Shown piece by piece: positions 12,931 to 62,297 of a stretch of 64,000 bases of DNA. Under the pieces are notes generated by a model. The model had not been told where the DNA came from. It saw only the letters and a program-made list of their open reading frames with translations, and did not search any database. Location of the stretch: NCBI RefSeq assembly GCF_000023325.1, contig NC_012785.1, positions 1,364,001 through 1,428,000 on the forward strand, written 5' to 3'. The stretch comes from Kosmotoga olearia TBF 19.5.1 (GTDB lineage: Bacteria; Thermotogota; Thermotogae; Petrotogales; Kosmotogaceae). Position 1 is the stretch's first letter; every line of letters starts with the position of its first letter. A program made the position numbers and the translations under genes.

Positions 12931-13195
12931 GCTTCGCAGCGAAGGAATCCCTTTGGGATTGCCGTGACCGGCTACTCCGGTGTCACGAACTCCTTCGGAG
13001 TTGGAAAAAATCTGACGCTTGCGAGGCTGAGGCTTGCAGACGCTGATGAAATTCGTTGTTGGTTGTAGGTTGTGGGTTGTACGTAAAGATCAAGTTTTGG
13101 TAACCGAAGAGAGATTAGATGTTGGAGACTAGGGTTTGGATAAAGATCAAAAACCGAGAATCAGAGAGCAGAGATTAGGTAATAAAGATCGAGAT
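12931..13195 (+). repeat. composite repeat with a 3-unit hairpin array (12946-13002)
   Basis: It starts with the palindrome GCTGCTTCGCAGC. Three 21-bp hairpin units follow at 12946, 12967 and 12988: AATCCCtttGGGATT, ACCGGctactCCGGT and AACTCCttcGGAGTT. After these come the GACGCTTGCGAGGCTG block and a TTGTNGG tandem tract (about 13053-13082). This is the first array in the window and none occurs inside the polysaccharide cluster. Confidence 0.85.
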
Positions 13196-13338
13196 TGGAT
13201 TTTGGTTTTGGTTGGCATGTTATTTTGTATAGTTATGTGGTGTTTGCCTTTTCGAAAAGGGTTTCTTTGGAATTCTCTGGAATCATAGTTTATAATCCTT
13301 GTAGTAAGATGGATTTATTGAAAGAGGGTGGATTTTTA

Positions 13339-13605
13339 ATGGCTGAAAAGGAATTTGATATCCAGGGTGAGGTATTGGATCGTTATTCTAATTTTGTCCA
13401 TATATCTTCATCGTTTTTTGATTTCACATTGAGATTTGGATTAGTAGAAGATTTGAAATCGGAACAGAATAAACTGACGATTAGCAATGTCACGCGAGTT
13501 TTTCTAAGTCCACAACATGCTAAGGTGCTTTATAAGATTCTTAAACAGCAGCTTGATGAATACGAGAAAAGATTCGGTGAAATAAAATTGCCTAAGGAGG
13601 AATAA
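13339..13605 (+). CDS. DUF3467-family protein, copy 1
   Basis: An 88-aa protein beginning MAEKEFDIQGEVLDRYSN. Its middle SSSFFDFTLRFG and the C-terminal LSPQHAKVLYKILKQQL are typical of DUF3467, a small domain of unknown function. I chose the ATG after GAGGGTGG; the frame is open further upstream but enters repeat DNA. It is followed after 2 bases by the small 87-aa gene and then by a VapC-like toxin, and the same trio recurs at 40005-40999, so the three appear to form one module. Confidence 0.8.
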   Translation: MAEKEFDIQGEVLDRYSNFVHISSSFFDFTLRFGLVEDLKSEQNKLTISNVTRVFLSPQHAKVLYKILKQQLDEYEKRFGEIKLPKEE

Positions 13606-13607
13606 TT

Positions 13608-13871
13608 ATGAGACCTGAGGCTTTGCATAAATGGCTTCATAAGAATGATATAACGACTTCCATGTATTATTTGTCTGTATCTACGAAGGGATATTCTAAG
13701 GCCATTTCTTCAAGTAATACACAACAAGTTGTTGGTATTCAATATGTGAAATCTTCAAAGCAAAAGCGCGAGTTGCTTCAATTACGTGGGCTTGGAAAGC
13801 ATGTATGGGAAGGTATCAACGCAGATGAGTATGTTCGAGAGCTAAGAGAAGAATGGAAAGAAAGTGAATGA
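13608..13871 (+). CDS. unrecognised 87-aa protein, probable antitoxin, copy 1
   Basis: Not a family I recognise. The protein starts MRPEALHKWLHKNDITTSMY and ends in a charged helix, RELREEWKESE. It follows AAGGAGGAATAATT and sits directly before the PIN-domain toxin gene in both copies. That position, its size and its charged C-terminal helix make it the best antitoxin candidate of the module. The assignment is by context only; no DNA-binding motif is obvious. Confidence 0.6.
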   Translation: MRPEALHKWLHKNDITTSMYYLSVSTKGYSKAISSSNTQQVVGIQYVKSSKQKRELLQLRGLGKHVWEGINADEYVRELREEWKESE

Positions 13872-14094
13872 GTCAGTTTGGAGAATGTGTTTGAAAAAGT
13901 AACAAGAATAGGTATTGATACTTCCCCTTTTATTTACTTCATAGAATGTGTATGGCAAAATAAAGATACAGCGAGTGGCAGGATAAAAATCCAGCGGTAG
14001 GGAAAAAGAAAAGATCATTGCCAGCACCGGGGAAATCCATTACCCTTTAATTGCACAGCAAACAGTTAAAGGGGGTTAGAAAGGAGTGCTGACA

Positions 14095-15570
14095 ATGATC
14101 CAGGTACATCATATCAAATATCTGCGAGAATTTAAAGGGAAGTCATTGAGAAGCATAGCCAACGAGACGGGTCATGACTTCAGAACGGTGAAGAAATATG
14201 ACGAAATGGACGATTTCAACGAGTATGTTCAACGCAGAAAGAAGACTTCCAAGCTCGAACCGTACAAGCCCAAAATAGATGAATGGCTGGAAGAAGACAA
14301 AAGAGTCAAAGCGAAACAGCGACACACTGCCAGAAGGATTTACAGGAGATTGTGTGAGGAATATCCAGATTTCCCCCTCAGTGAACGTACCGTGAGGGCA
14401 TATGTGAGGAGGAAAAAGAAGGAATTATATTCCAACGAAGGTTATATACCTCTTGACCATCCTGGTGGTGAGGCACAAGCGGATTTCGGTCATGCTCAGT
14501 TCATTGAAAAGGGTAAAGAAACGACGTTGCATTATCTAAACCTTTCCTTTCCATACAGCAACGGAGGATATTTTCAATTATTTAGAGGGGAGAACCTTGA
14601 ATGTTTGCTCGAGGGGTTAAAGAACATATTCGAACATATGGGAAAGGTTCCCAGGCGTATATGGTTCGACAACCTATCTCCCGTGGTGAAAAAAATCCTG
14701 GATGGAGGGGAAAGGGAAGTAACGGAGAAGTTTTACAGATTTTGCCTTCATTATGGATTTGAGGCGGTGTTTTGTAATCCTGGTCGGGGCAATGAAAAAG
14801 GCAATGTGGAGAACAAGGTTGGATATAACAGGCGAAACTTCTTTGTTCCCATACCCAGGATAGAAAACCTTGAGGACTACAACAAAAAACTCTTAACCCT
14901 CTCGGAGAAAGATATGGAAAGACCCCATTACCGAAAGGGGAAGAGCATTAAAGAACTATTTTTAGAAGAAAAGAAAAAGATGCTGCCACTAAACGAAAAG
15001 CCTTTGGATATTTCCAGGTTACAGAAGGTGAAGACAGACAAGTATGGGATGCTTCGTTTTGAAAACAACAGATACTCTGTATCTCCAAAATGTGCGGAAA
15101 TAGAAGTGTGGTTGAAGATAGGGGCGTCGGAGATAGAGATACTGGATGAAGACTACAAAGTACTCGTAAAACACCCAAGATTGTACGGACACAACCTCCA
15201 ATCTCTGAATTGGTATCCATACCTTGAGACCTTGAGCAAAAGGCCAGGTGCGTTAAAATACACAGGATTTTACAGGGAATTGCCTCCTATTTGGCAAGAA
15301 TACTTCGAATCCTGTGATTACCAGGAAAAGAAAACCAGCCTGAAGTTGTTGGTCAAAATGCTGCGCGAAACAGATATGGAAACCGCGAGACATGCACTGG
15401 AGATAAGCCGCAAGAGCGAACGCTGCAATGCTGAGACCATATTCCTATCGTACCGACGGTTGATCCAGGAAGAACCATCGCCCTTTGAAACAGGGAAGGA
15501 AGTACCGAGATTACAGACATACACAACCGATTTCAAGGAATACGATTCCCTGGTGGGTGAAAGGAAATGA
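14095..15570 (+). CDS. istA: IstA transposase of an IS21-family element
   Basis: About 491 aa. The N-terminal helix-turn-helix region (KSLRSIANETGHDFRTVKKY) binds the IS ends. The DDE catalytic core includes GGEAQADFGHAQF (first Asp), WFDNLSPVV (second Asp) and GNEKGNVENKVGY (Glu). The C-terminal region resembles the beta-barrel of IstA (YGMLRFENNRYSV). The ATG at 14095 follows AAGGAG at the right distance; a GTG lies 9 bases earlier. It cuts the IS ends and joins them to the target together with IstB. Confidence 0.95.
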   Translation: MIQVHHIKYLREFKGKSLRSIANETGHDFRTVKKYDEMDDFNEYVQRRKKTSKLEPYKPKIDEWLEEDKRVKAKQRHTARRIYRRLCEEYPDFPLSERTVRAYVRRKKKELYSNEGYIPLDHPGGEAQADFGHAQFIEKGKETTLHYLNLSFPYSNGGYFQLFRGENLECLLEGLKNIFEHMGKVPRRIWFDNLSPVVKKILDGGEREVTEKFYRFCLHYGFEAVFCNPGRGNEKGNVENKVGYNRRNFFVPIPRIENLEDYNKKLLTLSEKDMERPHYRKGKSIKELFLEEKKKMLPLNEKPLDISRLQKVKTDKYGMLRFENNRYSVSPKCAEIEVWLKIGASEIEILDEDYKVLVKHPRLYGHNLQSLNWYPYLETLSKRPGALKYTGFYRELPPIWQEYFESCDYQEKKTSLKLLVKMLRETDMETARHALEISRKSERCNAETIFLSYRRLIQEEPSPFETGKEVPRLQTYTTDFKEYDSLVGERK

Positions 15571-16289
15571 AAGAAATCATCGCTCAATACTGCAAAGAAC
15601 TGAGATTGGGGAAAAGCATAGTGGAAAACTACCAAAGGATACAGGCAGAAACCAACGAAGAATTCCTTCTGAAACTACTAAAGCTGGAGATTGAAAACAG
15701 ACGGGTATCACGTAAAAACCGTTACCTAAAACAAGCTAACTTTGAGGTAATGAAAACCTTCGAAGACTACAGTTTTGACAACGTACAGATACCCCAGAGT
15801 ATAACATTGGAAGAACTACAAGAAGGGAGGTTTTTGGAAAAGAAAGAAAACCTAATACTGTATGGTCCTGTAGGAACAGGTAAAACACATATGGCAACAG
15901 CGATAGGCATCGTAGCCTGTAACCGGGAAAAGAAAGTTAGGTTTTACAGAACAGCTACACTGGTAAACGAACTTGTGGAAGCGAAAAACAATGGAACATT
16001 GAAAAGATTCTTGAAGACACTCAGAAAGACAGATTTGCTCATATGCGACGAATGGGGTTACATACCTCTAGACAGAGAAGGAGCACAACTCTTATTTCAA
16101 GTGATTGCAGAAAGATACGAAAGGAACAGTGTAATAATCACAACGAACCTTGAATTCAGTAAATGGAACGGGATATTCTACGACGACAAACTCACCAGTG
16201 CCATAATAGACAGATTAATTCACCATTGTCATTTACTGGTATTTACAGGCAGGAGTTACCGATTGGAACATTCGAGCATTAAGGCTTAG
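15567..16289 (+). CDS. istB: IstB AAA+ ATPase of an IS21-family element
   Basis: A 240-aa DnaC/IstB-like ATPase with Walker A GPVGTGKTH (about 105), Walker B LLICDEWGYIPLD (about 150) and a sensor segment SVIITTNLEFSKW. It helps select and bend target DNA for IstA. The ATG overlaps the istA stop (ATGA), the usual coupling in IS21 elements. Length is close to the family norm. Confidence 0.95.
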   Translation: MKEIIAQYCKELRLGKSIVENYQRIQAETNEEFLLKLLKLEIENRRVSRKNRYLKQANFEVMKTFEDYSFDNVQIPQSITLEELQEGRFLEKKENLILYGPVGTGKTHMATAIGIVACNREKKVRFYRTATLVNELVEAKNNGTLKRFLKTLRKTDLLICDEWGYIPLDREGAQLLFQVIAERYERNSVIITTNLEFSKWNGIFYDDKLTSAIIDRLIHHCHLLVFTGRSYRLEHSSIKA

Positions 16290-16754
16290 TTTTTTTACCC
16301 CGGGTGCTGGCTTTTTATTTTTCCGAATGCTGGATTTTTATATTGCCAAAAACAATAGAAGAGAATGAAAAATACCTCGAGGTTCTTACCTTCATTTTCA
16401 AAAAGATTGACATAGGATCTATAAAGGCTTTTTCGTCAGTCTTAACTCTTGCTGAAGTGCTGGTGCGACCATTTGTTAAAGGAGAACAGCATCTTATCAA
16501 TGAGTATATTAGTATTTTTACAAGCTGTGAAAACCTTTCTTTGATCCCTGTGGAAAAAGAAATAGCAGTTTTGGCCGCCAAAATTAGAGCTAAGAATGGT
16601 TTGAAACTTCCTGATGCCCTCCATTTTGCGACAGCCAAAGTATATAAGTGCGAGTTGTTTATCACAAATGACAAACATTTCAATGGGATCTCAGATTCTG
16701 AGATACAGATAGTTTTACTTGATGATCTTCTGGATAAGAATGTCTGAAGGGCGG

Positions 16755-17115
16755 AGTTACGCTCTGGGGACTTATGAACGCAGTAAAAACCGTTGTTGGT
16801 TGTAGGTTGTGGGTTGTACGTGACGATCGAAATCAGAAATTTGGTACGACTGTCTGACACCAGTGTTTCGAACTCATTCTGAGTTGTTGCGAACTCCTGC
16901 GGAGTTGGAAAAAATCTGACGCTTGCGAGGCTGAGGCTTGCGACACTGACAAATGATAATGCGACGCTTGTGAGGCTGTCAGCTGATGGAGCGACGGTTG
17001 ATAAAGTGATGCGAACCGCAAGCGGTTGTTGCGAACTCTTTCAGAGTTGTCACGAACTCCTTCGGAGTTGTTACGAACTGCTGCGCAGTTGTCTCGATCG
17101 ACTTTGTCGATGATG
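16755..17115 (+). repeat. composite repeat with hairpin arrays (16871-16906, 17014-17111)
   Basis: It contains a TTGTNGG tract (about 16793-16818). A two-unit array follows (starts 16871 and 16892), then GACGCTTGCGAGGCTG-type blocks. Next is a five-unit array at 17014, 17034, 17055, 17076 and 17097, with stems AACCGC, AACTCT, AACTCC, AACTGC and ATCGAC. The final ATCGACtttGTCGAT unit is followed by a T-run and then by the 3' end of the minus-strand four-helix-bundle gene. The junction TCACG/AACTCC inside this array is the empty version of the site occupied by the intron at 41367. Confidence 0.9.
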
Positions 17116-17561: not shown

Positions 17562-17638
17562 AACCGCAAGCGGTTGTTGCGAACTCTTTCAGAGTTGTTT
17601 CGAACTCCTGCGGAGTTGACCCGAACCACTGTGTGGTT
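17562..17638 (+). repeat. 4-unit hairpin array
   Basis: Units start at 17562, 17582, 17603 and 17624, with stems AACCGC (2-nt loop), AACTCT, AACTCC and AACCAC and linkers GTTGCG, GTTTCG and GACCCG. It lies just upstream of the four-helix-bundle promoter region. It is on the + strand although that gene is on the minus strand. Confidence 0.9.
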
Positions 17639-18040
17639 GACTACTGAGGTAAAGAGTGGGTTTTATAGGGTCTTGGGTCTGGTGTTCTTACTACTACGAA
17701 ACCCTAACAACTAGACCCTAAACCCGAGTTTAATAGAGCGGATCTGTGGTATAGGGTCCGAAAAATAGAAAAATAGGAAAAATAGGGACAGACACCAATA
17801 TTGAAAAAACCAAAAGCAGGTATAGGGTCTGGGGTTTAGGGTATAGAAAGAGCTTCGAGAACCGAGAATCGGGGTCCGAGAGGGTCGCTGTGCGGCTGGT
17901 GAGCACGCTAGGCGTGGGTAAGCCCGACTTCGTCGGTGATACGTACTGGCGGTGGGAAATGAGAGCTGGAAGGCTTTCCTTATTATTGGGGGTCAGACCG
18001 CTGAGTCCAAGTGCGTCCCGGGTATAACAAAATCCTCGAA
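17639..18040. repeat. mixed intergenic repeat, no gene
   Basis: About 400 bases with ACCCTAA-containing tracts, a GAGAATCGGGG-type purine tract and the palindromes GAGCACGCTAGGCGTG and CCCGACTTCGTCGG. I find no supported coding frame. Confidence 0.6.
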
Positions 18041-18143
18041 GATCCTGAATCGAGTTCATGATGACGAAGCGGCTGGAGTGTAGAAAGTCCAAAAACTATC
18101 AACTAACAACTAATAATTGAATTAGATGGGGAAAGGCGAAGCT

Positions 18144-19112
18144 TCAGGAATTGTGACGATTGTGTAGTAATACGTTTTTTGCTTTCCATATTAATTGGGG
18201 TTGTAGGTTGATCCTTTGTATAAGTTTGGTATCTTGAGTTAAGAGTTCAGGTACAATTTTGCCTTCGTTGTTGAGCAGCGATAGAAATTTTTCTTCGTTA
18301 TCTTTAAGTGGAAAAACGGTCCTGACGATTTCTTTTGATGCGCTTACAATTTCGTTGATTTGTTCATCGAAAGGTATTTTCAATTTGCTTTTGTTCAGTA
18401 CTGGTAGCAGTTGCTTTTTGATCTCTTTCTTGTCAGGTACGAGATCTTTTTCGGAGATTTCCATTAAATTTTTTCTATTCAATCCTATATAAACAACAAA
18501 TGCGATTTTTACCTTTTTCCAATCGATTTCATGAATGTGATTTCTGAGACTGTATAGGTCATAAAAATCACGAGCAGCTTTTCTTGCAAGCATAGCAACA
18601 ATTTTGGAAGCTAAAAGTTCGTTTAAGTTGAGAATAGAGACTTTTTGTGCTTTGTATGGGCCGATATTTTTCGAATCCATTATTACCGGATCAAATAGTG
18701 GTATTCTGAATTGGTAGTTGATTTCGATCTTAAGGTTTCCCCCGGCGCCCATAGCACTTTCGTATCTTAAGGAATATGAAGTTGCAGCGTCTGTTTTTCG
18801 TGAGTTTCGAATTTTGAGTTCCAGGGTTTTGAATGTAGATTCAATGAAATGTTCAAAACCCGGCCGTTCGGCATTAAGTGATTTTCGATCGGGATCTCCT
18901 ATGAAATTTAGATCAATGTCTACCGACAATCTTGGGATATCGAACAGAAAGAGGTTTAGAGCTGTTCCGCCCTTTAATACGAATTTTCCTTTTAACTCGG
19001 GTGTTTTGACAGCTTCATCAAGCCATGATAGAAGTATTAAGACCTTCTCAAGGATTTCAGGACGATATCCTGTATCTTCCGACAGTTTTTGCAGGGTTTC
19101 TCTGGAAAGCAA
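18144..19112 (-). CDS. AbiEii-type nucleotidyltransferase toxin, copy 1
   Basis: 322 aa of the AbiEii/AbiGii family, toxins of type IV toxin-antitoxin systems that also act in abortive infection; studied members modify tRNA with nucleotides. The nucleotidyltransferase core is visible as VLKGGTALNLF (about 46), RLSVDIDLNF (about 62) and a Lys-containing NELLASKIVAMLARKAARD (about 180). The TTG start follows GAGGAATAA. It begins 3 bases after the AbiEi-like gene and is co-transcribed with it. Confidence 0.9.
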   Translation of the reverse strand: MLSRETLQKLSEDTGYRPEILEKVLILLSWLDEAVKTPELKGKFVLKGGTALNLFLFDIPRLSVDIDLNFIGDPDRKSLNAERPGFEHFIESTFKTLELKIRNSRKTDAATSYSLRYESAMGAGGNLKIEINYQFRIPLFDPVIMDSKNIGPYKAQKVSILNLNELLASKIVAMLARKAARDFYDLYSLRNHIHEIDWKKVKIAFVVYIGLNRKNLMEISEKDLVPDKKEIKKQLLPVLNKSKLKIPFDEQINEIVSASKEIVRTVFPLKDNEEKFLSLLNNEGKIVPELLTQDTKLIQRINLQPQLIWKAKNVLLHNRHNS

Positions 19113-19115
19113 GAT

Positions 19116-19916
19116 TTATTCCTCCCATTCGAGTTCTAACAATGATTCCGGGATTGCCAGGTTCCATTTTTTGGAAACTCGTGTTTTTTCCTTTCTTGAA
19201 CGATCTAAGTAATGTATTGATTTTGGTTTCAATTTTTCGATTTCATGGAGAAGAGAGCTTTCAACGTTGAATGTTTTACGGTGGGTTTCAAGAAAGAATC
19301 CAACTTTTGCTGCTGTTGTGGAATTTTCTAAGAGCTTCAAGTATTCAAATAGCACTCTCATATCGAGAAATTCGGTCATTTCCAGAGAACGCCATACTTC
19401 TTCGATGCCTCCACTAAGGTCTGGTCTATCAAGCATGTCAACGAATGTTCTTTCACGACAGGTAATACGTACCTTTAGTCCCTGGATATCTATCTCCTTT
19501 ACACCGTAATTAACTTTCTTTTTTTTCAAAAGGGTGGTTGGTGGTTTGACCGGTTTGTAATATATATCCCTGAACTCAAAAGGCTTGATGTTTCTATTTG
19601 TAATGAAGGTTCTTACGTTATGTATTGAATAAGCACTCCCATAATATTCTTGGGCAGTGTGATAAGCCAGAATCGAGTCTGAAGTTCGTTTGCCTGCTAC
19701 CAAAAAAGGGTTGGGAGAGAAGTTTTCTGGATTAGCATTAGCCGGGACACTGGCATAGAGACTTCTACATATTTTGATAATCCTTCCTTGCTTTAAGTGA
19801 TAGTTTAGAAGAAGGTAATAGTTTTTTTCTGCCTTTGATTTCCAGCTTTTGAGATATTCTTTTAGTTCTGTTGTGGTAAAAACTGGATAGCTAGCGAAAA
19901 AGGAATCAAGTTTCAT
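19116..19916 (-). CDS. AbiEi-type antitoxin and autorepressor, copy 1
   Basis: About 266 aa. The N-terminal winged-helix part (FTTTELKEYLKSW through LKQGRIIKICRSLYA) and the C-terminal AbiEi domain (ITCRERTFVDMLDRPDLSGG) match the antitoxin of AbiE systems. I choose ATG 19916, which follows AAAAAGGTG by 6 bases; in-frame GTG and ATG codons lie up to 9 bases earlier. AbiEi proteins repress their own promoter by binding inverted repeats, and such repeats flank this promoter. Confidence 0.88.
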   Translation of the reverse strand: MKLDSFFASYPVFTTTELKEYLKSWKSKAEKNYYLLLNYHLKQGRIIKICRSLYASVPANANPENFSPNPFLVAGKRTSDSILAYHTAQEYYGSAYSIHNVRTFITNRNIKPFEFRDIYYKPVKPPTTLLKKKKVNYGVKEIDIQGLKVRITCRERTFVDMLDRPDLSGGIEEVWRSLEMTEFLDMRVLFEYLKLLENSTTAAKVGFFLETHRKTFNVESSLLHEIEKLKPKSIHYLDRSRKEKTRVSKKWNLAIPESLLELEWEE

Positions 19917-19929
19917 AGACATCACCTTT

Positions 19930-19986
19930 TTGACAATGTGGAGCGTAATATATAGTATTATTATATATTTTGGCGATCATTGTCAA
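19930..19986 (-). promoter_or_regulatory. AbiE promoter with flanking inverted repeat operators
   Basis: A perfect 9-bp inverted repeat, TTGACAATG (19930-19938) and CATTGTCAA (19978-19986), brackets the promoter. Read on the minus strand the distal arm also supplies the -35 box TTGACA, with TATAAT 15 bases or TAATAA 17 bases downstream. A repressor bound to both arms would cover the -35 and the leader. The site is conserved in copy 2. Confidence 0.8.
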
Positions 19987-20022
19987 GTGGTGCTGGGAAC
20001 CAGCAGAGCTGTGCGCTGCTTT

Positions 20023-20312
20023 GTAGCGGGTAAGCACGCTAGGCGTGGGTAAGCTTGGCTTTGCCAAGGGTAAGCCCGGCTGCGCCGGGGGTGAGCCAAA
20101 GCCGTTGTTGGTTGTACGTTGTGCGTTGTACGTGACAATCGAGAAACCGAGATCCGAGAGTCCGAGAAAGCTGCTTCGCAACAGATCGAGTAGGAGAGGG
20201 GCAATGCCCCTCTCCTACTCGATAACCACTACGTGGTTGATAAAAAACGTTGTGGGTTGTAGGTTGTACGTAAAAAACGAGAATCCGAGAGGGACGCTGT
20301 GCGGCAGATACG
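20023..20312 (+). repeat. composite repeat: GTAAGC-type hairpins, TTGTNGG tract and spacer
   Basis: Successive palindromes start with GTAAGCACGCTAGGCGTGGG and continue with TTGGCTTTGCCAA and CCCGGCTGCGCCGGG. The join GGGTAAG/CTTGGCT here is the empty equivalent of the insertion site of intron copy A. A TTGTNGG tract lies at about 20104-20129, followed by GAGAATCC-type purine repeats. Confidence 0.85.
20185..20223. repeat. perfect 18-bp palindrome identical to the intron tail
   Basis: The arms ATCGAGTAGGAGAGGGGC and its exact inverse are separated by AAT. The last 26 bases equal the 3' end of intron copies A and C, and the base after it begins a hairpin unit (AACCACtacGTGGTT), exactly as after an intron. 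It could be a fold-back remnant of an intron 3' end. Confidence 0.85.
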
Positions 20313-20411
20313 AATCCCTTCGGGATTGTTACGACCGGCTGCGCCGGTGTTACGAACTCCTGCGGAGTTGACTCGAACTGCAAGCAGTTGTCTCGATCGA
20401 CTTCGTCGATG
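20313..20411 (+). repeat. 5-unit hairpin array
   Basis: Units start at 20313, 20334, 20355, 20376 and 20396, with stems AATCCC, ACCGGC, AACTCC, AACTGC (2-nt loop) and ATCGAC. Linkers are GTTACG, GTTACG, GACTCG and GTCTCG. The last unit is the ATCGAC type that ends several arrays. Confidence 0.92.
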
Positions 20412-20416
20412 ATGTT

Positions 20417-20435
20417 CGCCTGCGGCGTTTTTTTT
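20417..20435 (+). terminator. hairpin plus T-run at the end of the array
   Basis: CGCCtgcGGCG is followed by eight T residues, a short rho-independent-terminator shape on the + strand. It ends at the last codon of the minus-strand ATPase gene. The stem is only 4 bp, so terminator strength is uncertain. Confidence 0.5.
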
Positions 20436-21795
20436 AGTTTAATACGCATTTTTTATCAATAATCCACCCCTTATCCCGATCTAATTTTACTAGCATTATG
20501 TTTTGCATTATTTCTAAATTGTTTTTGAACCCTGTTTTTGAGACTAATATGTAGCACGATGGTTTTACACCGAGTGCCTTTTCTTTTTTATAGAGTGTAT
20601 TCAAATCGCTTTGGGTGATATTTCTATTTCTCCATTTACATTCACCAATAAACCACTGGTCTCTCTTTTTTCCTATGATATCGATCTCCAGATCGTTCTC
20701 CCAAAACCTTCCAATTCTGTCAAATCCCAGTGTGCTTGACAGAAAGATCCTGGCTTCTTTTTCGAATTGGAAGGAGACAAATTGTTCAAAATTCTTTTCA
20801 AGTTGTTCGATTACCGGCTCAATCTGCCCGAATTCAAGGTATTGAAGGTAAGGAAAAACAAAGCGATACCAGAACCTGAAAAGCGGATCAGAAATTACGT
20901 AAATTCCTTTTCTCGTTCTGATGGGGTTCTTTATGGTAACCGGTATTTCTTTTTGAACTATGTTTAACGTTATGAGGTTATGCAGGTATGGCTGAATCTT
21001 TCTTGAATCTGAAAAGCCTATTTTGCTGGCAATATCTCCAGGGCGATTGTAACCAAAGGCGAGCGCTTCAAGTATGCTTTGATATATCTTTGGCTCCCTT
21101 AGCTCTTGGGATAGTATGAAAAGGGGTTCTTCTTTGAGTGGTGCACCTGAGCTCAGAAATAGGTCAATGATATTTTTAGAAATGCTCTTTTTTGTGTCGA
21201 AAAGGTTCAAATATTGTGGGACCCCACCAGTGATTGCATATGCTTTCATCAGGTTGTGGAAGTCGTAATCAGGCAAGAAATCATTGGAATGCTCAAATTT
21301 CACCGGATTGAGTTTCATATATCCGGTTTTTCTGCCGAACACGGGGCTTTTATAAGCAAGCAATTTTTCCATAAAGCTTATGCTTGAACTACAAAGGATC
21401 AGCTTTATCTTTGATTCTTCATGATCAACAAGCATTTGAATAATTGAAGGTAATTCGGGGGAGGCTTCAACCAGGTACTGAAATTCGTCAAGAACGAGAT
21501 AAATATTTTCATCCTTCGCTTTTTGGAAGACAAATCTCAAAGCATCTTCCCAGCTTTTGAATGTAGCACCGTGAAGATTGAACAACCGGGCCACTTCATT
21601 TGAAAAAGCATCCAGAAGAGTTGAGCCCGTAACCTGTCTTCCGACAAAGAAAATACCTTTTTTCCCATATACTGCTTTTTTCAAGAGAGCAGTTTTTCCT
21701 ACTCTTCTTCTGCCATAAAGTATAAAGAATTCAAGATTATCCGAATTGAGGTACTTCTTTAATGTATTGAGTTCCTCTATCCTGTTGTAAAACAA
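20434..21795 (-). CDS. archaeal-type P-loop ATPase with nuclease-like C-terminus
   Basis: About 453 aa of the ATPase_2 plus DUF234 group, common in archaea and Thermotogota. Visible motifs are Walker A FILYGRRRVGKTALL (about 30), Walker B IYLVLDEFQYL (about 105), a helix-turn-helix (RPGDIASKIGFSDSRKIQPYL), and a C-terminal PD-(D/E)XK-like segment with EIDIIG, then ECKWR. The function of these ATPases is unknown, though they often sit in mobile or defence regions. I favour TTG at 21795 (GAGGTGAG upstream); the longer frame starts with GTG at 21804. Confidence 0.8.
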   Translation of the reverse strand: MFYNRIEELNTLKKYLNSDNLEFFILYGRRRVGKTALLKKAVYGKKGIFFVGRQVTGSTLLDAFSNEVARLFNLHGATFKSWEDALRFVFQKAKDENIYLVLDEFQYLVEASPELPSIIQMLVDHEESKIKLILCSSSISFMEKLLAYKSPVFGRKTGYMKLNPVKFEHSNDFLPDYDFHNLMKAYAITGGVPQYLNLFDTKKSISKNIIDLFLSSGAPLKEEPLFILSQELREPKIYQSILEALAFGYNRPGDIASKIGFSDSRKIQPYLHNLITLNIVQKEIPVTIKNPIRTRKGIYVISDPLFRFWYRFVFPYLQYLEFGQIEPVIEQLEKNFEQFVSFQFEKEARIFLSSTLGFDRIGRFWENDLEIDIIGKKRDQWFIGECKWRNRNITQSDLNTLYKKEKALGVKPSCYILVSKTGFKNNLEIMQNIMLVKLDRDKGWIIDKKCVLN

Positions 21796-21869
21796 TGCCC
21801 TCACCTCATGCTAATTATGAATAGACTAATTTAGATTATACTATATAATTTGATTTTTTCAAAGGTTGG

Positions 21870-22254
21870 GAAAGCCGCTTCGCGGCGACACGAATCCCTT
21901 TGGGATTGGGGCGAACTCCTGATAAGAATACGAGAAGGCGAGAGGGCGAGAACCGGTAGCCGCTGCGCGGCGCTCCGAATCCCTTCGGGATTGTTACGAC
22001 CGGCTGCGCCGGTGTTACGAACTCCTGCGGAGTTGCCTAGAACCACTACGTGGTTGATAAAAAACGTTGTGGGTTGTAGGTTGTACGTAAAAAACGAGAA
22101 TCCGAGAGAGCCGCTACGCGGCGGAAAGCAGCTACGCTACTGAAGTGCTGAGGTGTGCTAAGGAGGCTGTACGCTGCGGGGCAGCGGATATGAGGAGCTT
22201 CGTCCAGGATAATTACGACGTTGGATAAATCTGAAAGCTGATTAGACATGGTTT
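21870..22254 (+). repeat. composite repeat with 4-unit hairpin array (21978-22055)
   Basis: A single AATCCCtttGGGATT unit lies near 21894. The array starts at 21978, 21999, 22020 and 22041 with stems AATCCC, ACCGGC, AACTCC and AACCAC. It is followed by a GATAAAAAACG stretch, a TTGTNGG-type tract, GAGAATCC repeats and CTGAAGTGCTGAGG-type palindromic blocks. The same string of modules recurs at 23609 and 50098. No gene is supported. Confidence 0.88.
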
Positions 22255-23444: not shown

Positions 23445-23885
23445 TCGTTGATGTGAATGGAATGCTGGACTGCGTCCTGGAGGCTGTACGCTGCTTCGCC
23501 AAAGCTGCTCCGCAGCGGGGACGAATCCCTTCGGGATTGATCCGAACTCCTGATAAGAATCCGAGAATCCGAGAGTCCGAGAACCGGTAGCTGCTGTGCA
23601 GCGATCCGAATCCCTTCGGGATTGTTACGACCGGCTGCGCCGGTGTTACGAACTCCTGCGGAGTTGCCTAGAACCACTACGTGGTTGATAAAAAACGTTG
23701 TGGGTTGTAGGTTGTACGTAAAAAACGAGAATCCGAGAGAGCCGCTGCGCGGCGGAAAGCAGCTACGCTACTGAAGTGCTGAGGTGTGCTAAGGAGGCTC
23801 ACGACGTTGACGCTCACGAGGTTGAGGCAAGGAGCAAGTGCATCGCTGATGCTGGTGTTAGGAGCGGTCGTGCGTAAATTTTTTT
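23445..23885 (+). repeat. composite repeat with 4-unit hairpin array (23609-23686)
   Basis: A single AATCCCttcGGGATT unit lies near 23526 and the array starts at 23609, 23630, 23651 and 23672. Palindromic blocks follow (TGCTGAGGTGTGC, GGAGGCTCACGACG). The order of blocks is the same as at 21870-22240, so these are related copies of one long composite repeat. Confidence 0.88.
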
Positions 23886-28509: not shown

Positions 28510-28956
28510 TGCTTTTGCTTCGTCTAAGCCGCTGCGCAGCGATTTAAAACGTTGTGGGTTGTGCGTGACAATCGAGAAACCGAGAAGGCGAGAGTCCGGA
28601 GGGCCGCTACGCGGCGGAAGAGCTGAGCTGCGCTCAGGAGGCTCACGACGTTGACGCTCACGAGGTTGAGGCTTGCAGAGGCTGATGAAATCCGAGAATC
28701 CGAGAGTCCGAGAGTCCGAGAAAAAACAAGACGCTTGCGAGGCTGTCAGCTGGTGGAGCGACGCTCACGAGGTTGAGGCTTGCGGACGCTGATTAAATCC
28801 GAGAATCCGAGAATCCGAGAGTCCGAGAAAAAACAAGACGCTCGCGAGGCTGTCAGCTGGTGGAGCGACGCTCGAAGACTGAGGCTTGCGGACGCTGAAT
28901 AAAAGCCGAGAATCCGAGAATCCGAGATCCGGTAAGCACGCTAGCGCGTGGGTAAG
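28510..28956 (+). repeat. composite repeat of palindromes and purine tracts
   Basis: Contains GCCGCTGCGCAGCG-type hairpins, repeated GACGCTTGCGAGGCTG and GTCAGCTGGTGGAGCGACGC blocks, and four GAGAATCCGAGAGTCC-type tracts of 8-bp period. It ends in the hairpin CACGCTAGCGCGTG followed by GGTAAG, where intron copy A begins. There are no 21-bp hairpin arrays here and no supported gene. Confidence 0.8.
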
Positions 28957-33446: not shown

Positions 33447-33449
33447 GAT

Positions 33450-34250: not shown

Positions 34251-34263
34251 AGACATCACCTTT

Positions 34264-40271: not shown

Positions 40272-40273
40272 TT

Positions 40274-44882: not shown

Positions 44883-45588
44883 TTATACCAGGGAAGAGGT
44901 TGAAGCGGCCTTCAGGATTTATCTTTTGCTGCAGAAAAAGGGAGAGTTGAGAAGACGGGATTTTATGGACCTTTTTGAAAAGTACAGCAGTAATCCGAAG
45001 GTGAGAGATATTTTTGTTAGTGTATTTGAACCGATGGCAGAGGCGAAGGTGCTGGAATCCGAAGATGTGCTTTATCTTGTCCCGGAACCGGATAGTGATT
45101 ATCTTAGTTACAATAACGAGCAGTTGAGGGAATTGATGCGGCTGGACAACAATACAGAGCTATACTGTGCCTATTTTGTGATTTTGTGTTTGCTTTCGGA
45201 ATTTTTTGGTGCCGATTTTCTGGATGAAGTCCTCAGGGAATATATTCTGGTGAAGGATCTTGAAAGGGTTGTTTCGGCTTCTTTTGAAAGTATAGAACCT
45301 CATATGGATGAATTGGAAGTTGATTCGGGGTTCAATCTCAGGGCAGCTTATGAACACTGGAAATCTATGGAGGAATACAGGGAACTGGAACGGATGAAGG
45401 CGAGCAAGACGAATCGATATAGTTTTATTTTGAGGGTTTGTAGTTTTCTTCAGTCTCAGGGATTGGTGAATCTGGTTCAGGAAAGGGAGATATATATCAC
45501 CCGGAAAACGGAGCTTATAGTCAGGAATTTTTACGCAGGTAAGGAAACGAAGGAAAAGCTTTTGAAGTTGATCAGCGGGAGGCTTTGA
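44872..45588 (+). CDS. jetB: Wadjet protein JetB (KITE-like subunit)
   Basis: 238 aa, with an acidic, winged-helix-like N-terminus (EVEAAFRIYLLLQKKGELRR) similar to DUF6063-type JetB proteins. JetB forms the small accessory dimer that binds the kleisin. It overlaps jetA by 11 bases and ends one base before jetC, so the four genes form one transcription unit. Confidence 0.78.
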   Translation: MYDSYTREEVEAAFRIYLLLQKKGELRRRDFMDLFEKYSSNPKVRDIFVSVFEPMAEAKVLESEDVLYLVPEPDSDYLSYNNEQLRELMRLDNNTELYCAYFVILCLLSEFFGADFLDEVLREYILVKDLERVVSASFESIEPHMDELEVDSGFNLRAAYEHWKSMEEYRELERMKASKTNRYSFILRVCSFLQSQGLVNLVQEREIYITRKTELIVRNFYAGKETKEKLLKLISGRL

Positions 45589-45589
45589 G

Positions 45590-49957: not shown

Positions 49958-50379
49958 GCACCTTTGGAGCGGAAGTGCTGGACTGCGTCCACGACGCTTG
50001 CGAGGCTGTCAGCTGGTGGAGCGGCGCTCACGAGGTTGAGGCTTGCAGACGCTGATGAAATCCGAGAATCCGAGAGGGCCGCTGTGCGGCAGATACGAAT
50101 CCCTTCGGGATTGTTACGACCGGCTGCGCCGGTGTTACGAACTCCTGCGGAGTTGCCTCGAACCACTACGTGGTTGATAAAAAACGTTGTGGGTTGTAGG
50201 TTGTACGTAAAAAACGAGAATCCGAGAGTGCTGGACTGCGTCCAGGAGGCTTGCAAACGCTGTCAGTTGGTGGAGCGACGCTCGAAGACTGAGGCTTGCG
50301 GACGCTGATGAAAAGCTGAGATCCGAGATTCGAGAACCGAGAGTCCGAGAACCGAGAAAGCCGCTGCGCGGCTGGTGAG
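49958..50379 (+). repeat. composite repeat with 4-unit hairpin array (50098-50175)
   Basis: CTGGACTGCGTCCA and GACGCTTGCGAGGCTG blocks precede the array with starts 50098, 50119, 50140 and 50161 (AATCCC, ACCGGC, AACTCC, AACCAC). A GATAAAAAACG stretch and TTGTNGG tract follow, then purine tracts. The end is the hairpin AGCCGCTGCGCGGCT plus GGTGAG, where intron copy C begins. Confidence 0.9.
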
Positions 50380-52373
50380 GTGTGCCCGGCATGACATACA
50401 ACTATAGGGTGAAAGTCCCGAATGTGGGGAGTGAAATAAGCATTAGCTGAGGGCAAGGGTGTCACTGGTAACGGTGAATCTGAAGGAAGCCTAAGGCAAA
50501 ATCCGGAACTGAACGAAAGTGAACCAGTGTTGGCCGGTAGAGAGGGTAACCTTGCCTTACATGGGGAAGCCCAAGCTCCAACTCTACAGGTTGGGATGGC
50601 AGGATTCGGATGAAAGCTGTATGTCTTACCCGGGGAAGTCCTCACTCGTCCCAGAAATGGGTAAGCCGGAACAAGGGGAAACCCAAGGACCGGTAAAGCG
50701 GAGGAGGATGGCAGACGAACCCGTAGTAGTGTAGAACCTCTCTGAAAGGAGAAGGGACCATCGCCTTGAGCGATGGGGGTAACAGGAACCGAAAGGGCCT
50801 GTTACTTGCGAAGGGGGGAAGGGTTGAGAAAATGGCACAAAGGGAAGTGAGTATAACAGGAGCCCGTAACGGAGGCTGAAATGCTAACGACGGTTGAAAA
50901 TAACCGGGGCAGGTAAGTAACCATTGCAAAGATAGGAAGATTCCCGGGAGGGTAAAGAATCCAATCTTTGGATGGAAGAAGAAACCGATTCTGTTATATG
51001 CGACTTATCTGGAAGGCCATACAGGAGGTAACATGAGGAAGTACTACAGTCTTATTGACAAAGTTTATCTGGAATCGAACCTGGCCAAAGCATATCACAA
51101 GGTGCGAAGAAACAACGGAGCACCCGGGATAGATGGAGTAACGGTTCAGGAGTATGGAGAAAACCTTCTGGAAAGGATCAAGAAACTCAGCGAAAAGTTG
51201 CGTAAAGGAGAATACCGGCCTTCACCGGTAAAAAGGGTGGAAATCCCGAAAGGAAATGGGAAGACACGTATGCTCGGGATACCAACGGTAGAGGATCGGA
51301 TAGTACAACAATCGCTGAAAGAAATAATGGAACCAATCTTTGAGGAAGGATTTCATCCTTCAAGTTATGGATACAGGAAAGGAAGGAATCCACACCAAGC
51401 AGTAGAAAAAGCCTATGCTTTCGCGTGCAAATACAAAATGAAATACGTGGTCCAGTTAGACCTTAGCCAATGCTTTGACACCTTAGACCACGAAAAGATA
51501 ATAGACGCAGTAGCGGAAAGAATAAGCGATGGCAAAATATTGAGATTAATAAGAAGTTTCCTCAAAAGTGGAGTCATAACGGACCAATACCAACCCAGTG
51601 AGATGGGAAGTCCACAGGGCGGAGTAATAAGCCCCTTGTTAGCCAACATCTATCTGAACAAATTTGACCAGAAAATGATGGCCAGAGGAATAAGGATAGT
51701 GAGATATGCAGACGACATACTAATCTTCGCAAAGAGCTACAAAAGCGCGGAAAAATACCTAAAAATAGCTATCCGGATACTGGAAAAAGAGCTGAAATTG
51801 AAGGTCAACAAAGAAAAGACGAGAATAACCACGATAGATGATGGAATCGAATTCCTTGGATTTACCATACAAAAAGGCAAAATACGAATCCAGGAAAAGA
51901 AAATAAAAAGGTTCAAAGCGAAAGTAAAAACACTCACCCGGAGAAACCAATGTACACCGATTGGAGAGATAATAAAACGGCTAAACCAATTGCTGAGAGG
52001 CTTCAGCAATTACTACAAAATAATCGATTGGGTGGGAGTATTCAAAGGCCTCATGGGTTGGATAAGAAGGAGATTGAGAGCCATAATCCTGCGACAATGG
52101 AAGACGACAAAGAAACTATGCAGGGTGATGAGACAAAAAGGATACAGAGGCGAAATATCTGGAATAAGGATGAACAAATGGAGAAGCTCTCAATCCCGGT
52201 TGGTCAGTAGGCTACTGCCGAACAAGTATTTCCAGAAGATAGGGCTGTATGATATGAAGCTTTCGCATGTACCACTGTCGGAGAATCCGATACTCAATCC
52301 ATGAGCCGTGTACGTTGGCCCGTACGCACGGTTCTGTGAGAGGACGGGGGGCAATGCCCCTCTCCTACTCGAT
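50380..52373 (+). mobile_element. group II intron with maturase, copy C (1,994 bp)
   Basis: Same length as copy A and without visible differences, offset 21,423 bases. The 3' flank CACTCCTTCGGAGTG with the following GGGGAATAATAGACGC equals the sequence at 32075 after GTAAG, which gives a near-empty site and fixes the boundary. It lies 422 bases past jetC, so two introns bracket the Wadjet operon. Confidence 0.93.
51033..52304 (+). CDS. ltrA: group II intron reverse transcriptase/maturase, copy C
   Basis: 423 aa, the same protein as in copy A, with YADDILIF, the SPQGGVISPLLANIYL segment and domain X intact and no endonuclease domain. Identity of the two copies implies a very recent transposition or gene conversion. 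Either copy could supply maturase to the maturase-less intron. Confidence 0.95.
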   Translation: MRKYYSLIDKVYLESNLAKAYHKVRRNNGAPGIDGVTVQEYGENLLERIKKLSEKLRKGEYRPSPVKRVEIPKGNGKTRMLGIPTVEDRIVQQSLKEIMEPIFEEGFHPSSYGYRKGRNPHQAVEKAYAFACKYKMKYVVQLDLSQCFDTLDHEKIIDAVAERISDGKILRLIRSFLKSGVITDQYQPSEMGSPQGGVISPLLANIYLNKFDQKMMARGIRIVRYADDILIFAKSYKSAEKYLKIAIRILEKELKLKVNKEKTRITTIDDGIEFLGFTIQKGKIRIQEKKIKRFKAKVKTLTRRNQCTPIGEIIKRLNQLLRGFSNYYKIIDWVGVFKGLMGWIRRRLRAIILRQWKTTKKLCRVMRQKGYRGEISGIRMNKWRSSQSRLVSRLLPNKYFQKIGLYDMKLSHVPLSENPILNP

Positions 52374-54110: not shown

Positions 54111-54778
54111 CTCCTTTATGTGCTCACATCAATTATAAAACAAAGTTGCGATTGGCTAACGTCGAAGCCGCTACGCGGTGGATAAGCCCGGCTGCGCCGG
54201 GGGTGAGCCTAGCTGCGCTGTGAAGCTGAGCTGCGCTCAGGAGGCTCACGACGTTGACGCTCACGAGGTTGAGGCTTGCGGACGCTGATGAAAAGCTGAG
54301 AATCCGAGATCCGAGAATCCGAGAGTCCGAGAGTCCGAGAAAAAACATGACGCTTGCGACAAAAAAACACGAGAATCCGAGAGGGCGAGAAAAAACAAGA
54401 CGCTTGCGAGGCTATGCGCTGCTTCGTAGCGGCTATGCTGAGCTAAAGCTCAGGCTATGCGTGACTTCGTCACGGCTATGCGCAACTTCGTTGCGGCTAA
54501 GTATCTTTTAGAGAGCAATGACGAGATCCTGAATCGAGTTCAGGATGACAATCAAAATAAAGAGCACAGCATGCTGTGCCCTGTTTTTTATGTCAGCGAC
54601 GCAGTCGCTTGATAAAAACACAAGAATCGGAGAAGCGAGAAGGTGAAAAACAGGACGCTTGTAAGACAGAGACTTGCGATGTCGAAGTGCTGGCTTACCC
54701 TATACCCTCTTTTTTCAAAAAGGTGTTAGAGGTTTCATATTTTTTGCAGTGTGATATGATATAACTTTAATATAGTGT
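54111..54778 (+). repeat. composite repeat without 21-bp arrays
   Basis: GTAAGC-type hairpins (CCCGGCTGCGCCGGGGG), CTGAGCTGCGCTCAGG, GACGCTCACGAGG blocks and six GAGAATCC-type units come first. Related palindromes follow (GCTGCTTCGTAGC, GTGACTTCGTCAC, GCAACTTCGTTGC) joined by GGCTA, an array-like set near 54413-54510. The palindromes ATCCTGAATCGAGTTCAGGAT and GGGCACAGCATGCTGTGCCC type end it. A promoter-like TATAAC lies near 54758. Confidence 0.75.
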
Positions 54779-60280: not shown

Positions 60281-60325
60281 AGAAAATGGGGACTGTCCCG
60301 TAGTGGACTGTCCCCATTTTCTTCA
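60278..60325 (+). terminator. strong hairpin terminator of the ABC operon
   Basis: Two 21-base arms pair at 20 of 21 positions around the loop CGTAGT. The arms begin TGAAGAAAATGGGG, so the TGA stop codon of the permease is part of the stem, and the 3' arm includes ATTTTCTT. The perfect symmetry would also allow action on the opposite strand. Confidence 0.8.
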
Positions 60326-60651
60326 GATTCAAGAACAATTATTGTAGGGGCACAGCAAGCAAATAAAAACCGAGAGCCGAGAGCGCCGCTGCGCGGCGGA
60401 CACGAATCCCTTCGGGATTGACCCGAACTCCTGCGGAGTTGTTGCGAACCACTTCGTGGTTGTTACGAACTGCTTTGCAGTTGAAAAAGCTGTCATTCTG
60501 GAGATGTTTTATCCAGAATCTTATTTTCTTAAGTACGAGATCCTGAGTCAAGCTCGGGATGACGGCCTTGCAAGCGGCGCCTCATCAGCTGACAACGTCG
60601 TGAGCCTCCGGGGCGAAGCCCCGCACTTCATTACCGAAGGCAATCTAAGCG
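60326..60651 (+). repeat. composite repeat with 4-unit hairpin array (60405-60482)
   Basis: GCCGCTGCGCGGCGG is followed by the array with starts 60405, 60426, 60447 and 60468 (AATCCC, AACTCC, AACCAC, AACTGC), then a GTCATTCTGGAGATG stretch as at 32325. The final part (about 60565-60650) holds the GTCGTGAGCCTCC blocks in reverse orientation. Confidence 0.9.
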
Positions 60652-61551
60652 TCAATCGGTGATTATGCCGCTGCTAAGGTAGCGTTCAAGATGATCCGGC
60701 GCTATTGTTACCACTCTACGGAATCCTTCTTTAGACAAACGCAGCGCTGCAGCCACATTTGCACCGGAAGAGATACCAACCAGCAATCCTTCTTTTCTTT
60801 GAAGATATTTTGTCATCTCTATAGCTTCTTCATCGGTGACCGTTAAGACACCGTCCAGTAATTTGAGATCAAGGATATCGGGTATGAAACCAGCACCAAT
60901 TCCCTGTATTTTGTGTTTTCCGCTCCTGTTTTCTGTTATAACCGGTGAACCTGCCGGTTCGACACCGTAGATTTTTACGTTTGGAAGCACTTTCTTCAGA
61001 GCACGGCCAACACCGGTAACAGTTCCACCTGTACCTATTCCACAAACAAATGCATCAATATCAAATTCAGCCTGCACAAGTATTTCAGGTCCGGTGGTTA
61101 ACTCATGAATCAAAGGATTCGCCGGATTTGAGAACTGATTGAGCATCACTGCTGAAGGCTCGTTTTTAACTATTTCCAGAGCTTTCTGTCTGGAACCGTT
61201 CATACCCAAATCTGCGGGTGTCAATATAACCTCAGCACCAAAGGCCTTTAAAACCTTGATTCTTTCCTGACTCATGCTTTCCGGCATTACCATTACCGCT
61301 CTGTATCCTCGAACGGCCGACAACATTGCGATCGCTATCCCGGTGTTTCCACTTGTAGGTTCGACTATCGTAGCTCCTGGAGAAAGGATTCCCCTCTTTT
61401 CTGCATCGATAATCATCCCGAGCACTGTTCTATCCTTAATGCTCCCACCTGGGTTGTTCTTCTCAAGTTTTAAAAGAATCTCCCTATCATCGTTTCCAAG
61501 GGATTTCAGCAAAATCATAGGGGTATTTCCTATAAGTTCACGCAATCTCAT
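60652..61551 (-). CDS. cysK: cysteine synthase
   Basis: About 299 aa, the normal length. PLP-binding Lys is in NNPGGSIKDRTVLGM (about 40), the phosphate/substrate loop is EPTSGNTGIA, and the C-terminal GTGGTVTGVGR and SSGANVAAAL segments complete the fold. It makes cysteine from O-acetylserine and sulfide. I chose ATG 61551 (GCAAGAGG upstream), which lies inside the end of cysE; the longer frame upstream is the cysE region in another frame. Confidence 0.95.
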   Translation of the reverse strand: MRLRELIGNTPMILLKSLGNDDREILLKLEKNNPGGSIKDRTVLGMIIDAEKRGILSPGATIVEPTSGNTGIAIAMLSAVRGYRAVMVMPESMSQERIKVLKAFGAEVILTPADLGMNGSRQKALEIVKNEPSAVMLNQFSNPANPLIHELTTGPEILVQAEFDIDAFVCGIGTGGTVTGVGRALKKVLPNVKIYGVEPAGSPVITENRSGKHKIQGIGAGFIPDILDLKLLDGVLTVTDEEAIEMTKYLQRKEGLLVGISSGANVAAALRLSKEGFRRVVTIAPDHLERYLSSGIITD

Positions 61552-62113
61552 CCTCTTGCACCTCACATTTACAAAATTTACTAACAGGACGTGCTGGAAT
61601 ACCAACCACAGTGGTATTGGGTTGGACATGTTCCAGAACAACGCTATTAGCACCGATTTTCGCATTGTCGCCAATAACAAGTGGCCCAAGAATCTTAGCT
61701 CCAGCACCTATAACAACATTTCTTCCTACGTCCGGATGCCTCTTGCCTTCCACCAATTTGCGAGTTCCCAGGGTTACTCCATGATATATCAGAGTTCCAC
61801 TACCTATGGAAGTGGTAGACCCTATAACAGTTCCAATGCCGTGATCAATTACTACACCAGGTTCAATCTTTGCGGCCGGATGTATATCAACGGAAAAAAG
61901 TATCCTCGCCGCGTAATGAATAAACTCCGCAAGCCATTTCATTCTATGACACCAGAAGAAATGAGAGATTCTATAGAATAATAACGCATGGAACCCGATT
62001 GATGTAAATGCAACATGAGTTTCAGAACGTGCAGAAGGATCCTTTAGAAAATACTCTTTGAGATCAGCCCGCACAGCTCTGAGCATTTCAAGAAAATCAT
62101 ATAATAATTTCAT
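61538..62113 (-). CDS. cysE: serine O-acetyltransferase
   Basis: About 191 aa. The N-terminal helical part (MKLLYDFLEMLRAVRADL) is followed by left-handed beta-helix hexapeptide repeats (IGSTTSIGSGTLI, VVIGAGAKILGPLVIGDNAK) and the His-containing DHGIGTVIG and KRHPDVGRN. It makes O-acetylserine for CysK. ATG 62113 follows GGAGGTGAG. The last 14 bases overlap cysK, so the two are translationally coupled and probably form the cysteine synthase complex. Confidence 0.95.
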   Translation of the reverse strand: MKLLYDFLEMLRAVRADLKEYFLKDPSARSETHVAFTSIGFHALLFYRISHFFWCHRMKWLAEFIHYAARILFSVDIHPAAKIEPGVVIDHGIGTVIGSTTSIGSGTLIYHGVTLGTRKLVEGKRHPDVGRNVVIGAGAKILGPLVIGDNAKIGANSVVLEHVQPNTTVVGIPARPVSKFCKCEVQEDEIA

Positions 62114-62241
62114 GGTCTCACCTCCAAAGAGGTTTGTGATAATTTTACCAGCTAAGTACAAATTTAATTATAAACTTTTAATGCAATTCCGATTAAATTT
62201 CTCGGAATGATCCTGCTTCGCAGGGGGAATAACGTGAAACG

Positions 62242-62297
62242 AACCGCAAGCGGTTGTTGCGAACCACTTCGTGGTTGTTATGAACTGCTTTGCAGTT
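62242..62297 (+). repeat. 3-unit hairpin array
   Basis: Starts at 62242 (AACCGC, 2-nt loop), 62262 (AACCAC) and 62283 (AACTGC), with linkers GTTGCG and GTTATG. It lies upstream of cysE on the opposite strand and is the rightmost array in the window. Confidence 0.9.

Follow-up and report, generated by a model that had tools for sequence, protein, structure and literature searches.

Ordered, phase-locked arrays of DNA-like mini-hairpins in Kosmotoga olearia and the group II introns that lie behind them

The stretch analysed here (hereafter the window) comprises 64,000 nucleotides of the Kosmotoga olearia TBF 19.5.1 genome (contig NC_012785.1, forward-strand positions 1,364,001 to 1,428,000) and holds, between 12.9 and 62 kb, an island of defence genes among which rows of mini-hairpins are strewn. 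The island encodes two AbiEi/AbiEii pairs, JetD-A-B-C (Wadjet), three ATPase_2 genes (two with DUF234), two 23S-IVP genes and two DUF3467/PIN cassettes, the second PIN gene being assigned by 96% DNA identity; an array of mini-hairpins is present in 16 of its 25 gaps longer than 100 bp. Each unit of an array consists of a 6-bp stem, a 2- to 3-nt loop and a 6-nt linker, and successive units are spaced by 21 bp, or by 20 bp where the loop is AA. A first-pass annotation of the window had described 56 such units in 14 arrays. Chaining of hairpins recovered the 56 units of this AA..TT family exactly, spread over 15 arrays (3+2+5+4+5+4+4+5+4+4+2+3+4+4+3), or over the claimed 14 if the parts at 41325-41360 and 42134-42190 are taken as a single array split by a group II intron. 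The phase held as well, down to the example starts 32220, 32241, 32262, 32283 and 32304. The mini-hairpin arrays of the window are real, ordered, DNA-like repeats.

All window arrays read along the forward strand. They lie at 12946-13002 (three units: AATCCC, ACCGGC with one mismatch, AACTCC), 16871-16906 (two: AACTCA, AACTCC), 17014-17111 (five: AACCGC with AA loop, AACTCT, AACTCC, AACTGC, ATCGAC), 17562-17638 (four: AACCGC with AA loop, AACTCT, AACTCC, AACCAC), 20313-20410 (five), 21978-22055 and 23609-23686 (four each), 32199-32318 (five, from 32220; also folded), 36208-36285 (four: AACCAC, AACTCA, AACTGC, ATCGAC), 39712-39810 (four, from 39733), 41304-41360 (two, from 41325, left of the intron), 42134-42190 (three, right of the intron by junction reading, with one G/T pair each), 50077-50175 (four, from 50098), 60384-60482 (four, from 60405) and 62242-62297 (three). 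Where the first unit starts later than the interval, a GC-rich hairpin sits in phase directly upstream of it (32199, 39712, 41304, 50077, 60384), and four of these five leading hairpins pair at 5 of 6 stem positions. They were left out of the 56, as were chance chaining extensions at 17118, 17138, 36292, 36312 and 41367 and one chance array at 45176. Two more hairpin families occur on the same strand, one with GGTAAG-like linkers (20054-20089, two units; 30951-31007, three units, immediately 3' of an intron by junction reading) and one with GCTATG-like linkers (four hairpins at 54417-54495 and four units at 63067-63144). Octamer (GAGAATCC) repeats accompany arrays at 28653-28931, 39628-39669 and 54298-54341, and heptamer (GGTTGTA) repeats do so elsewhere, for example at 13055-13081.

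The hairpins exceed chance in a loop-specific manner. Perfect 6-bp stems closing a 3-nt loop number 107 in the window against 23.9 expected, while those with 2-nt or 4- to 8-nt loops are at expectation; a two-unit pattern matches 125 times in the genome, and not once when read backwards. Pairing between differing stems, which the first-pass annotation considered to be kept, is kept overall, with 99.1% of alignment cells paired against 74.6 in shuffles, but two units contain a true mismatch (12967, C/T; 39733, G/G), and T stands opposite G in three units, all within 42134-42190, rather than in two. The covariation itself surpassed the shuffled controls that the annotation had proposed: 75 cells were changed on both sides against 20.1 in shuffles, a value reached by none of 500, and slid versions gave 2-11. 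Weaker measures, counting pairs or pair types, gave 9 against 6.4 (reached by 4 of 500) and 18 against 15.4 (51 of 500). Since the 27 rows of the alignment overlap and are related, this test overstates their independence.

Across the genome (2,302,126 bp, one contig), strict chaining with one strand per array found at least 106 arrays with 366 units in 472 kb of stretches picked for the presence of arrays; a looser count of the same 472 kb gave 417 units and 107 groups of two or more. Rows contain two to six mini-hairpins, and about seven stem types cover nearly all units in a nearly fixed order, usually [AATCCC, or AACCGC with AA loop] - (ACCGGC) - AACTCC/T/A - AACCAC - AACTGC/AACCGC - (ATCGAC). 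The types are recognisable also in K. pacifica (probably G020) and in seemingly Mesotoga-like genomes. As they are fixed and ordered, and this in relatives too, much of the covariation is a difference between fixed types. The proposal that selection or copying acts on the fold and not on the sequence therefore needs dividing: the fold is kept (907 of 924 pairs are Watson-Crick in 154 interior units taken in whether paired or not), but the sequence is not free. Arrays outside the window are paired just as well as those inside it, so the refuting pattern named in the annotation, frequent unpaired stems elsewhere, did not appear.

Part of the conservation reflects the unit filter, which admitted only units with A..T as the outer pair, G on either side of the hairpin, G as the first linker base and T (or AA) in the loop, so these positions are conserved by requirement. 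Among positions on which nothing was imposed, the third loop base is C in 305 of 341 three-nt loops, base 5 of the upstream linker is C with 0-12% departures, and inner stem bases mostly depart from their type by 0-4%. Exceptions in the stem reach 23% and are largely paired changes, at the last pair of AACTC[C/T/A] and the third pair of ACCGGC. The middles of upstream linkers depart by 16-65% in the six common types. Of the five common types with a three-nt loop, four show departures of 40-63% at the loop middle, but AATCCC 4%. Units were assigned to the nearest stem type, which hides drift between types.

Arrays occur on both strands, and 7 of the 106 overlap a predicted gene. Their orientation is regional, with 19 minus and 2 plus at 1.15-1.36 Mb and 19 plus and 2 minus at 1.36-1.52 Mb; a replication-strand preference is not claimed, as the split of 72 to 34 arrays comes from the best of ten guessed origins, chosen post hoc. 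A coding repeat of seven codons (21 nt) was ruled out because the 20-bp units shift the reading frame, and their free occurrence likewise weakens the suggestion that 21 bp matters as two helical turns. Intrinsic terminators were set aside on direct reading, no terminator scan having been made, since several arrays end in GTTGAAAAA, where the array strand carries a run of A instead of T. The idea of an additional, bulged pair at the linker was dropped, as the linkers of relatives end in TG without a matching change.

The Rfam group II intron model RF02001 has 11 matches in the K. olearia genome, and the 5' junction of every one lies 6-7 nt after a mini-hairpin. Nine introns start exactly 6 nt after a 5- to 6-bp mini-hairpin; for the remaining two (L160 and L161) the distance from a 5-bp stem is 7 nt, or 6 nt with a mismatched outer pair included in the stem, and L160 is antisense to its array. 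On the 3' side, seven of nine junctions open a fully paired hairpin (G/T allowed), that of L153 is imperfect and the antisense one has no hairpin. Three copies, delimited by Rfam matches and junctions, lie on the forward strand of the window: 28957-30950, 6 nt after a mini-hairpin and with a reverse transcriptase/maturase gene at 29610-30881; 41367-42133, inside an array and devoid of a long reading frame; and 50380-52373. A scan of the protein of one intron copy found RVT_1 and GIIM but nothing of endonuclease type. Insertion after hairpins and a reverse transcriptase/maturase lacking an endonuclease fit class C, to which these introns probably belong. According to a review, terminators or attC motifs are where class C introns insert (PMC4424553). 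The K. olearia introns resemble such group IIC insertions in lying a few nucleotides after a hairpin, but differ in that the target is a repeat unit, with neither a T run nor a cassette integrase. In two other genomes (G022 and G024) with 24 introns, all eight junctions read follow palindromes resembling CGTC repetitive extragenic palindromes (REPs). The intron was rejected as the sole cause of the arrays because three genomes (G019, G020 and G021) carry arrays and have no RF02001 match. At two places, the final ~17 nt of the intron are joined to their exact complement in a perfect palindrome ending at the intron 3' end (window 20185-20223, followed by a hairpin unit; L138, ~1039-1076), which looks like the fold-back product of an abortive intron insertion.

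The close relative G019 has its own amplified version, an element whose 110-bp core is a five-hairpin array and which exists in nine distinct copies that are 96-100% identical over this core. By reading, a pair of hairpins comes first and ACTGGC-AACTCC-ACCAGC after it, with spacings of 20 to 21 bp. Left of the core, identity between copies falls to 0.50 inside 20 bp, and right of it to 0.54 inside 30 bp, against a background of 0.38-0.51. The left edge is sharp; the right one gives way over 30 bp to octamer repeats, which resemble those on the left in opposite orientation. At two loci, G019 has an array (in one case the 110-bp element) and the orthologous K. olearia gap has none, these gaps being known beforehand to be array-free.

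Two comparisons of close relatives further point to exchange within arrays. Contigs L033 and L014 differ by 27 events in 6.3 kb, of which the first 5.6 kb account for 5 and the array-bearing last 0.74 kb for 22. One array there shows a 40-nt indel (about two units), altered linkers and loops, and a stem changed in both arms from GCCGC/GCGGC to GCCAC/GTGGC. This is as expected for replacement by another copy, though an assembly artefact is possible, both being contigs of metagenome-assembled genomes. G019 L120 is 97.9% identical to window 20275-21863 over 1,589 bp, yet the second unit of the array (20313-20410 in the window) is of another type, and the left flank of L120 matches window 32095-32285 instead; L120 is therefore a recombinant within the array. 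Judged from these alignments, arrays recombine as blocks in both comparisons. Between the alternatives of selection and a copying mechanism offered by the first-pass annotation, both copying and a constraint on the fold seem involved, new stems arriving in both comparisons as whole blocks.

The covariance-model search that the annotation had recommended was made with a two-unit model, which gave at least 150 matches in the K. olearia genome at E<=0.01, with 150 of 826 candidates scored. Among 103 Thermotogota genomes, scanned under stricter filters with 59 candidates scored per genome, 17 matched at E<=0.001: K. olearia itself 70 times, G019 23, G021 10, G020 7, G002 6, G018 5, G028 3 and ten others once or twice. 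The G002 or G018 bin may be contaminated, since most of their matches are on 6.3-kb contigs sharing 98.98% identity. Matches in G003, G055 and G096 come from short contigs in draft assemblies, and the weak ones in G015, G025, G026, G030 and G088 (E 1e-3 to 3e-5) look like chance. A pattern search of wider genome contigs met 35 stretches. Reading them showed three to be related, L014, L020 and L033, each from Thermotogota, and the others to be different 21-bp repeats or chance. Four stretches from unrelated bacteria (L013, L021, L031, L032) hold other 21-bp-like tandem repeats that fit the pattern, and in one or more of them hairpins could form. Phage records searched for distant matches to window 32160-32340 gave none, and searches of the open-access literature on Kosmotoga repeats or tandem hairpin arrays, judged by titles and abstract openings, brought up no description of such arrays.

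Against this background, the arrays are best read as a non-coding REP- or MITE-like variant of interspersed palindromic repeats (MITE, miniature inverted-repeat transposable element) with a group II intron niche. They share with REPs and with the REPINs built from them, repeats that go with RAYT transposases, the short palindromes, the high copy number between genes and the logic of single-stranded DNA hairpins, and one study reports compensatory changes in the spacers of REPINs (PMC3116915). However, a REPIN is made of two inverted REPs, whereas here up to six different hairpins follow head-to-tail in fixed order and phase; all 106 arrays are head-to-tail by definition (one strand per array), inverted pairs not having been sought genome-wide. 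The GTAG tag of REPs was not seen in the arrays. K. olearia and M. prima are listed as carriers of CGTC-3 REPs in the sections of Di Nocera 2013 (PMC3733652) that were read, which give 8- to 9-bp stems, 4- to 5-nt loops and mostly head-to-head dimers for CGTC REPs, in contrast to the 6-bp stems, 2- to 3-nt loops and GNNNCG linkers of the mini-hairpins. By reading, CGTC REPs often directly follow arrays (GTCATTCTGG..CCAGAATC). The first-pass verdict that no known REP family is involved thus stands against the CGTC and GTAG families as far as those sections describe them, but interspersed palindromic repeats as such are a known kind. It was also right in excluding CRISPR, as the arrays have no identical repeats with unique spacers of similar length: unit sequences differ and the 6-nt linkers contain three variable bases (cas genes were not sought). 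MITEs are approached by the nine G019 copies, near-identical, with defined ends (GAGAG..CTCTC) around a core of ~110 bp; no autonomous partner or target duplication was identified, and the flanks are rich in repeats and offer no clean site.

Two Y1 transposase genes of K. olearia lie near arrays. Each has GGGACAG-containing repeats upstream, and one also has a GGGGACAG palindrome on its downstream side. These flanking repeats resemble the GGGGWSAS terminal repeats in the same sections of Di Nocera 2013 (PMC3733652). Arrays proper stand near one of the two Y1/RAYT genes and a degenerate unit follows both, other repeats sitting nearer the gene ends. Mobilisation by these transposases appears unlikely, as the other repeats fit the gene ends better; it is further disfavoured by a K. 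pacifica copy with no clean array behind it and by G021, which has arrays and no transposase match (83% completeness). By eye, an apparent 3' end of a Kosmotoga-type Y1 transposase gene lies upstream of an array in G027 (C5, ~30.4 kb; L045).

Several findings bear on whether the fold acts in DNA or in RNA, and we consider DNA the likelier level. In the array-chosen stretches, perfect 6-bp triloop hairpins occur at 4.99 per kb of non-coding sequence against 0.48 per kb within predicted genes, and seven control stretches have 4 in 6.3 kb, without excess. Intergenic triloops are TNC or its complement GNA in 377 of 483 cases, and array loops, when the opposite strand is read, agree with the C-GNA-G mini-hairpin of DNA; such GNA mini-hairpins are heat-stable in DNA according to a paper on short oligonucleotides (PMC4686876). 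With DNA parameters, the array at 32199-32318 is the centroid fold on both strands (z -4.7, -4.6), and at 37 C predicted array pairs survive better as DNA (mean 0.73-0.75) than as RNA (0.60-0.66). A known RNA family was ruled out by an Rfam gathering scan of the window, which matched group II intron models only. Alternatively, the arrays would be transcribed, mostly downstream of genes, as hairpin rows that protect or regulate transcripts or bind an RNA-binding protein. We regard this as unlikely: RNA minimum-energy folds of 32199-32318 are not the array on either strand (z -2.3, -2.5), Rfam recognised the introns alone, and one-sided stem departures show no G-U preference on the array strand (18 A/C, 13 G/T and 12 other overall; 8 A/C against 1 G/T in interior units, a ratio that would suit RNA of the opposite strand, but the copies are clonal). 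The same RNA function is favoured by observations that weigh against a DNA-level, mobile repeat: at 65 C, the growth optimum, predicted pairs of the 106 arrays survive better as RNA (mean 0.45-0.46) than as DNA (0.33-0.35); upstream genes lean slightly to co-orientation (58 of 96, with median distances of 108-135 bp in those classes), as for transcribed 3' regions; and stems are conserved within types beyond the need of a substrate recognised by fold only. Mobility itself is burdened by element ends that are not sharp in K. olearia, where neither a transposase, a target duplication nor a clean empty site was found (65 candidate empty-site rows, all repeat-flanked), and by at least two gaps (L134/L103, L124/L098) that hold arrays in both species, in opposite orientation, so that insertion is not random between gaps.

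Pairing might also be kept by copying rather than by selection, one arm templating the repair of the other through template switching and leaving two-sided changes without function. The two intron-end palindromes, by reading, show fold-back synthesis products in this genome, and unpaired positions vary far more than paired ones. Yet arm-to-arm correction alone should let stems drift in pairs, whereas most types are fixed, with 29 paired both-side changes in 2,196 cells (nearest-type assignment hides between-type drift), and it leaves the fixed order and the TNC loop unexplained, which makes it decidedly improbable as the whole account. We give very little credence to units acting as double-stranded, operator-like palindromes at two helical turns, bound by one nucleoid, partition or regulator protein: palindromy and 21-bp spacing suit such operators, but some seven stem sequences, 20-bp units and a strand-asymmetric TNC loop do not.

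We therefore favour, with reservations, a dispersed non-coding DNA-hairpin repeat that is spread by a putative enzyme, shuffled by recombination and used by a group IIC-like intron. Arrays are rows of two to six mini-hairpins that belong to a limited repertoire of stem types, in near-fixed order and 21-bp (20-bp) phase. The structure of the G019 copies shows that the unit of spread is the entire element, which probably moves as a folded single strand of DNA acted on by a putative enzyme; copies are then shuffled by ectopic recombination between arrays, as the two comparisons indicate. The fold may be kept because the folded DNA is the substrate of spread, with the strand opposite the array strand predicted to form C-GNA-G triloops that are unusually stable in DNA. 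A group II intron, apparently of class C type, uses hairpin and linker as its landing site, as its 11 positions show.

In the island, arrays between duplicated toxin-antitoxin and defence cassettes may serve as homologous joints for exchange. For duplicated or imported blocks other than introns, 14 paired, hand-picked ends were listed. A mini-hairpin is no more than 60 bp away from 10 of these ends (background 38%, p 0.011), and an array from 7 (background 24%, p 0.030), p values that are optimistic given how the ends were chosen; the pattern is suggestive only. Side by side with this, the two AbiEi/AbiEii cassettes (18040-20019 and 32374-34353; L136) are 98% identical, copies of the DUF3467/PIN cassette lie at 13191-16748 (interrupted by an IS21-type element) and 39857-41000, the JetD, JetA, JetB and JetC genes (42296-49957) sit between two arrays, and array units in G022 also flank genes that, judged from reading open reading frames, resemble AbiE. 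An integron integrase gene, as in attC cassette arrays, was not found: the genome has one tyrosine recombinase (PF00589) gene, at 2,076,351, which, not typed further, could conceivably encode one. Arrays could conceivably form a recombination platform, attC-like without an integron integrase, where C-GNA-G hairpins expose single strands at joints, defence and toxin-antitoxin cassettes are duplicated, imported and reordered, and introns exploit the sites; we hold this to be quite unlikely.

The REPs, REPINs and CGTC repeats compared here are single hairpins or inverted pairs, whereas the K. olearia element is an ordered, phase-locked row of up to six. Its arrays present group II introns with a defined target of another kind than terminators and attC sites, and its DNA-rule loops make it testable whether folded single-stranded DNA, not RNA, is what selection or a copying enzyme sees. 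Were the recombination platform real, a thermophile could shuffle its defence genes without an integron.

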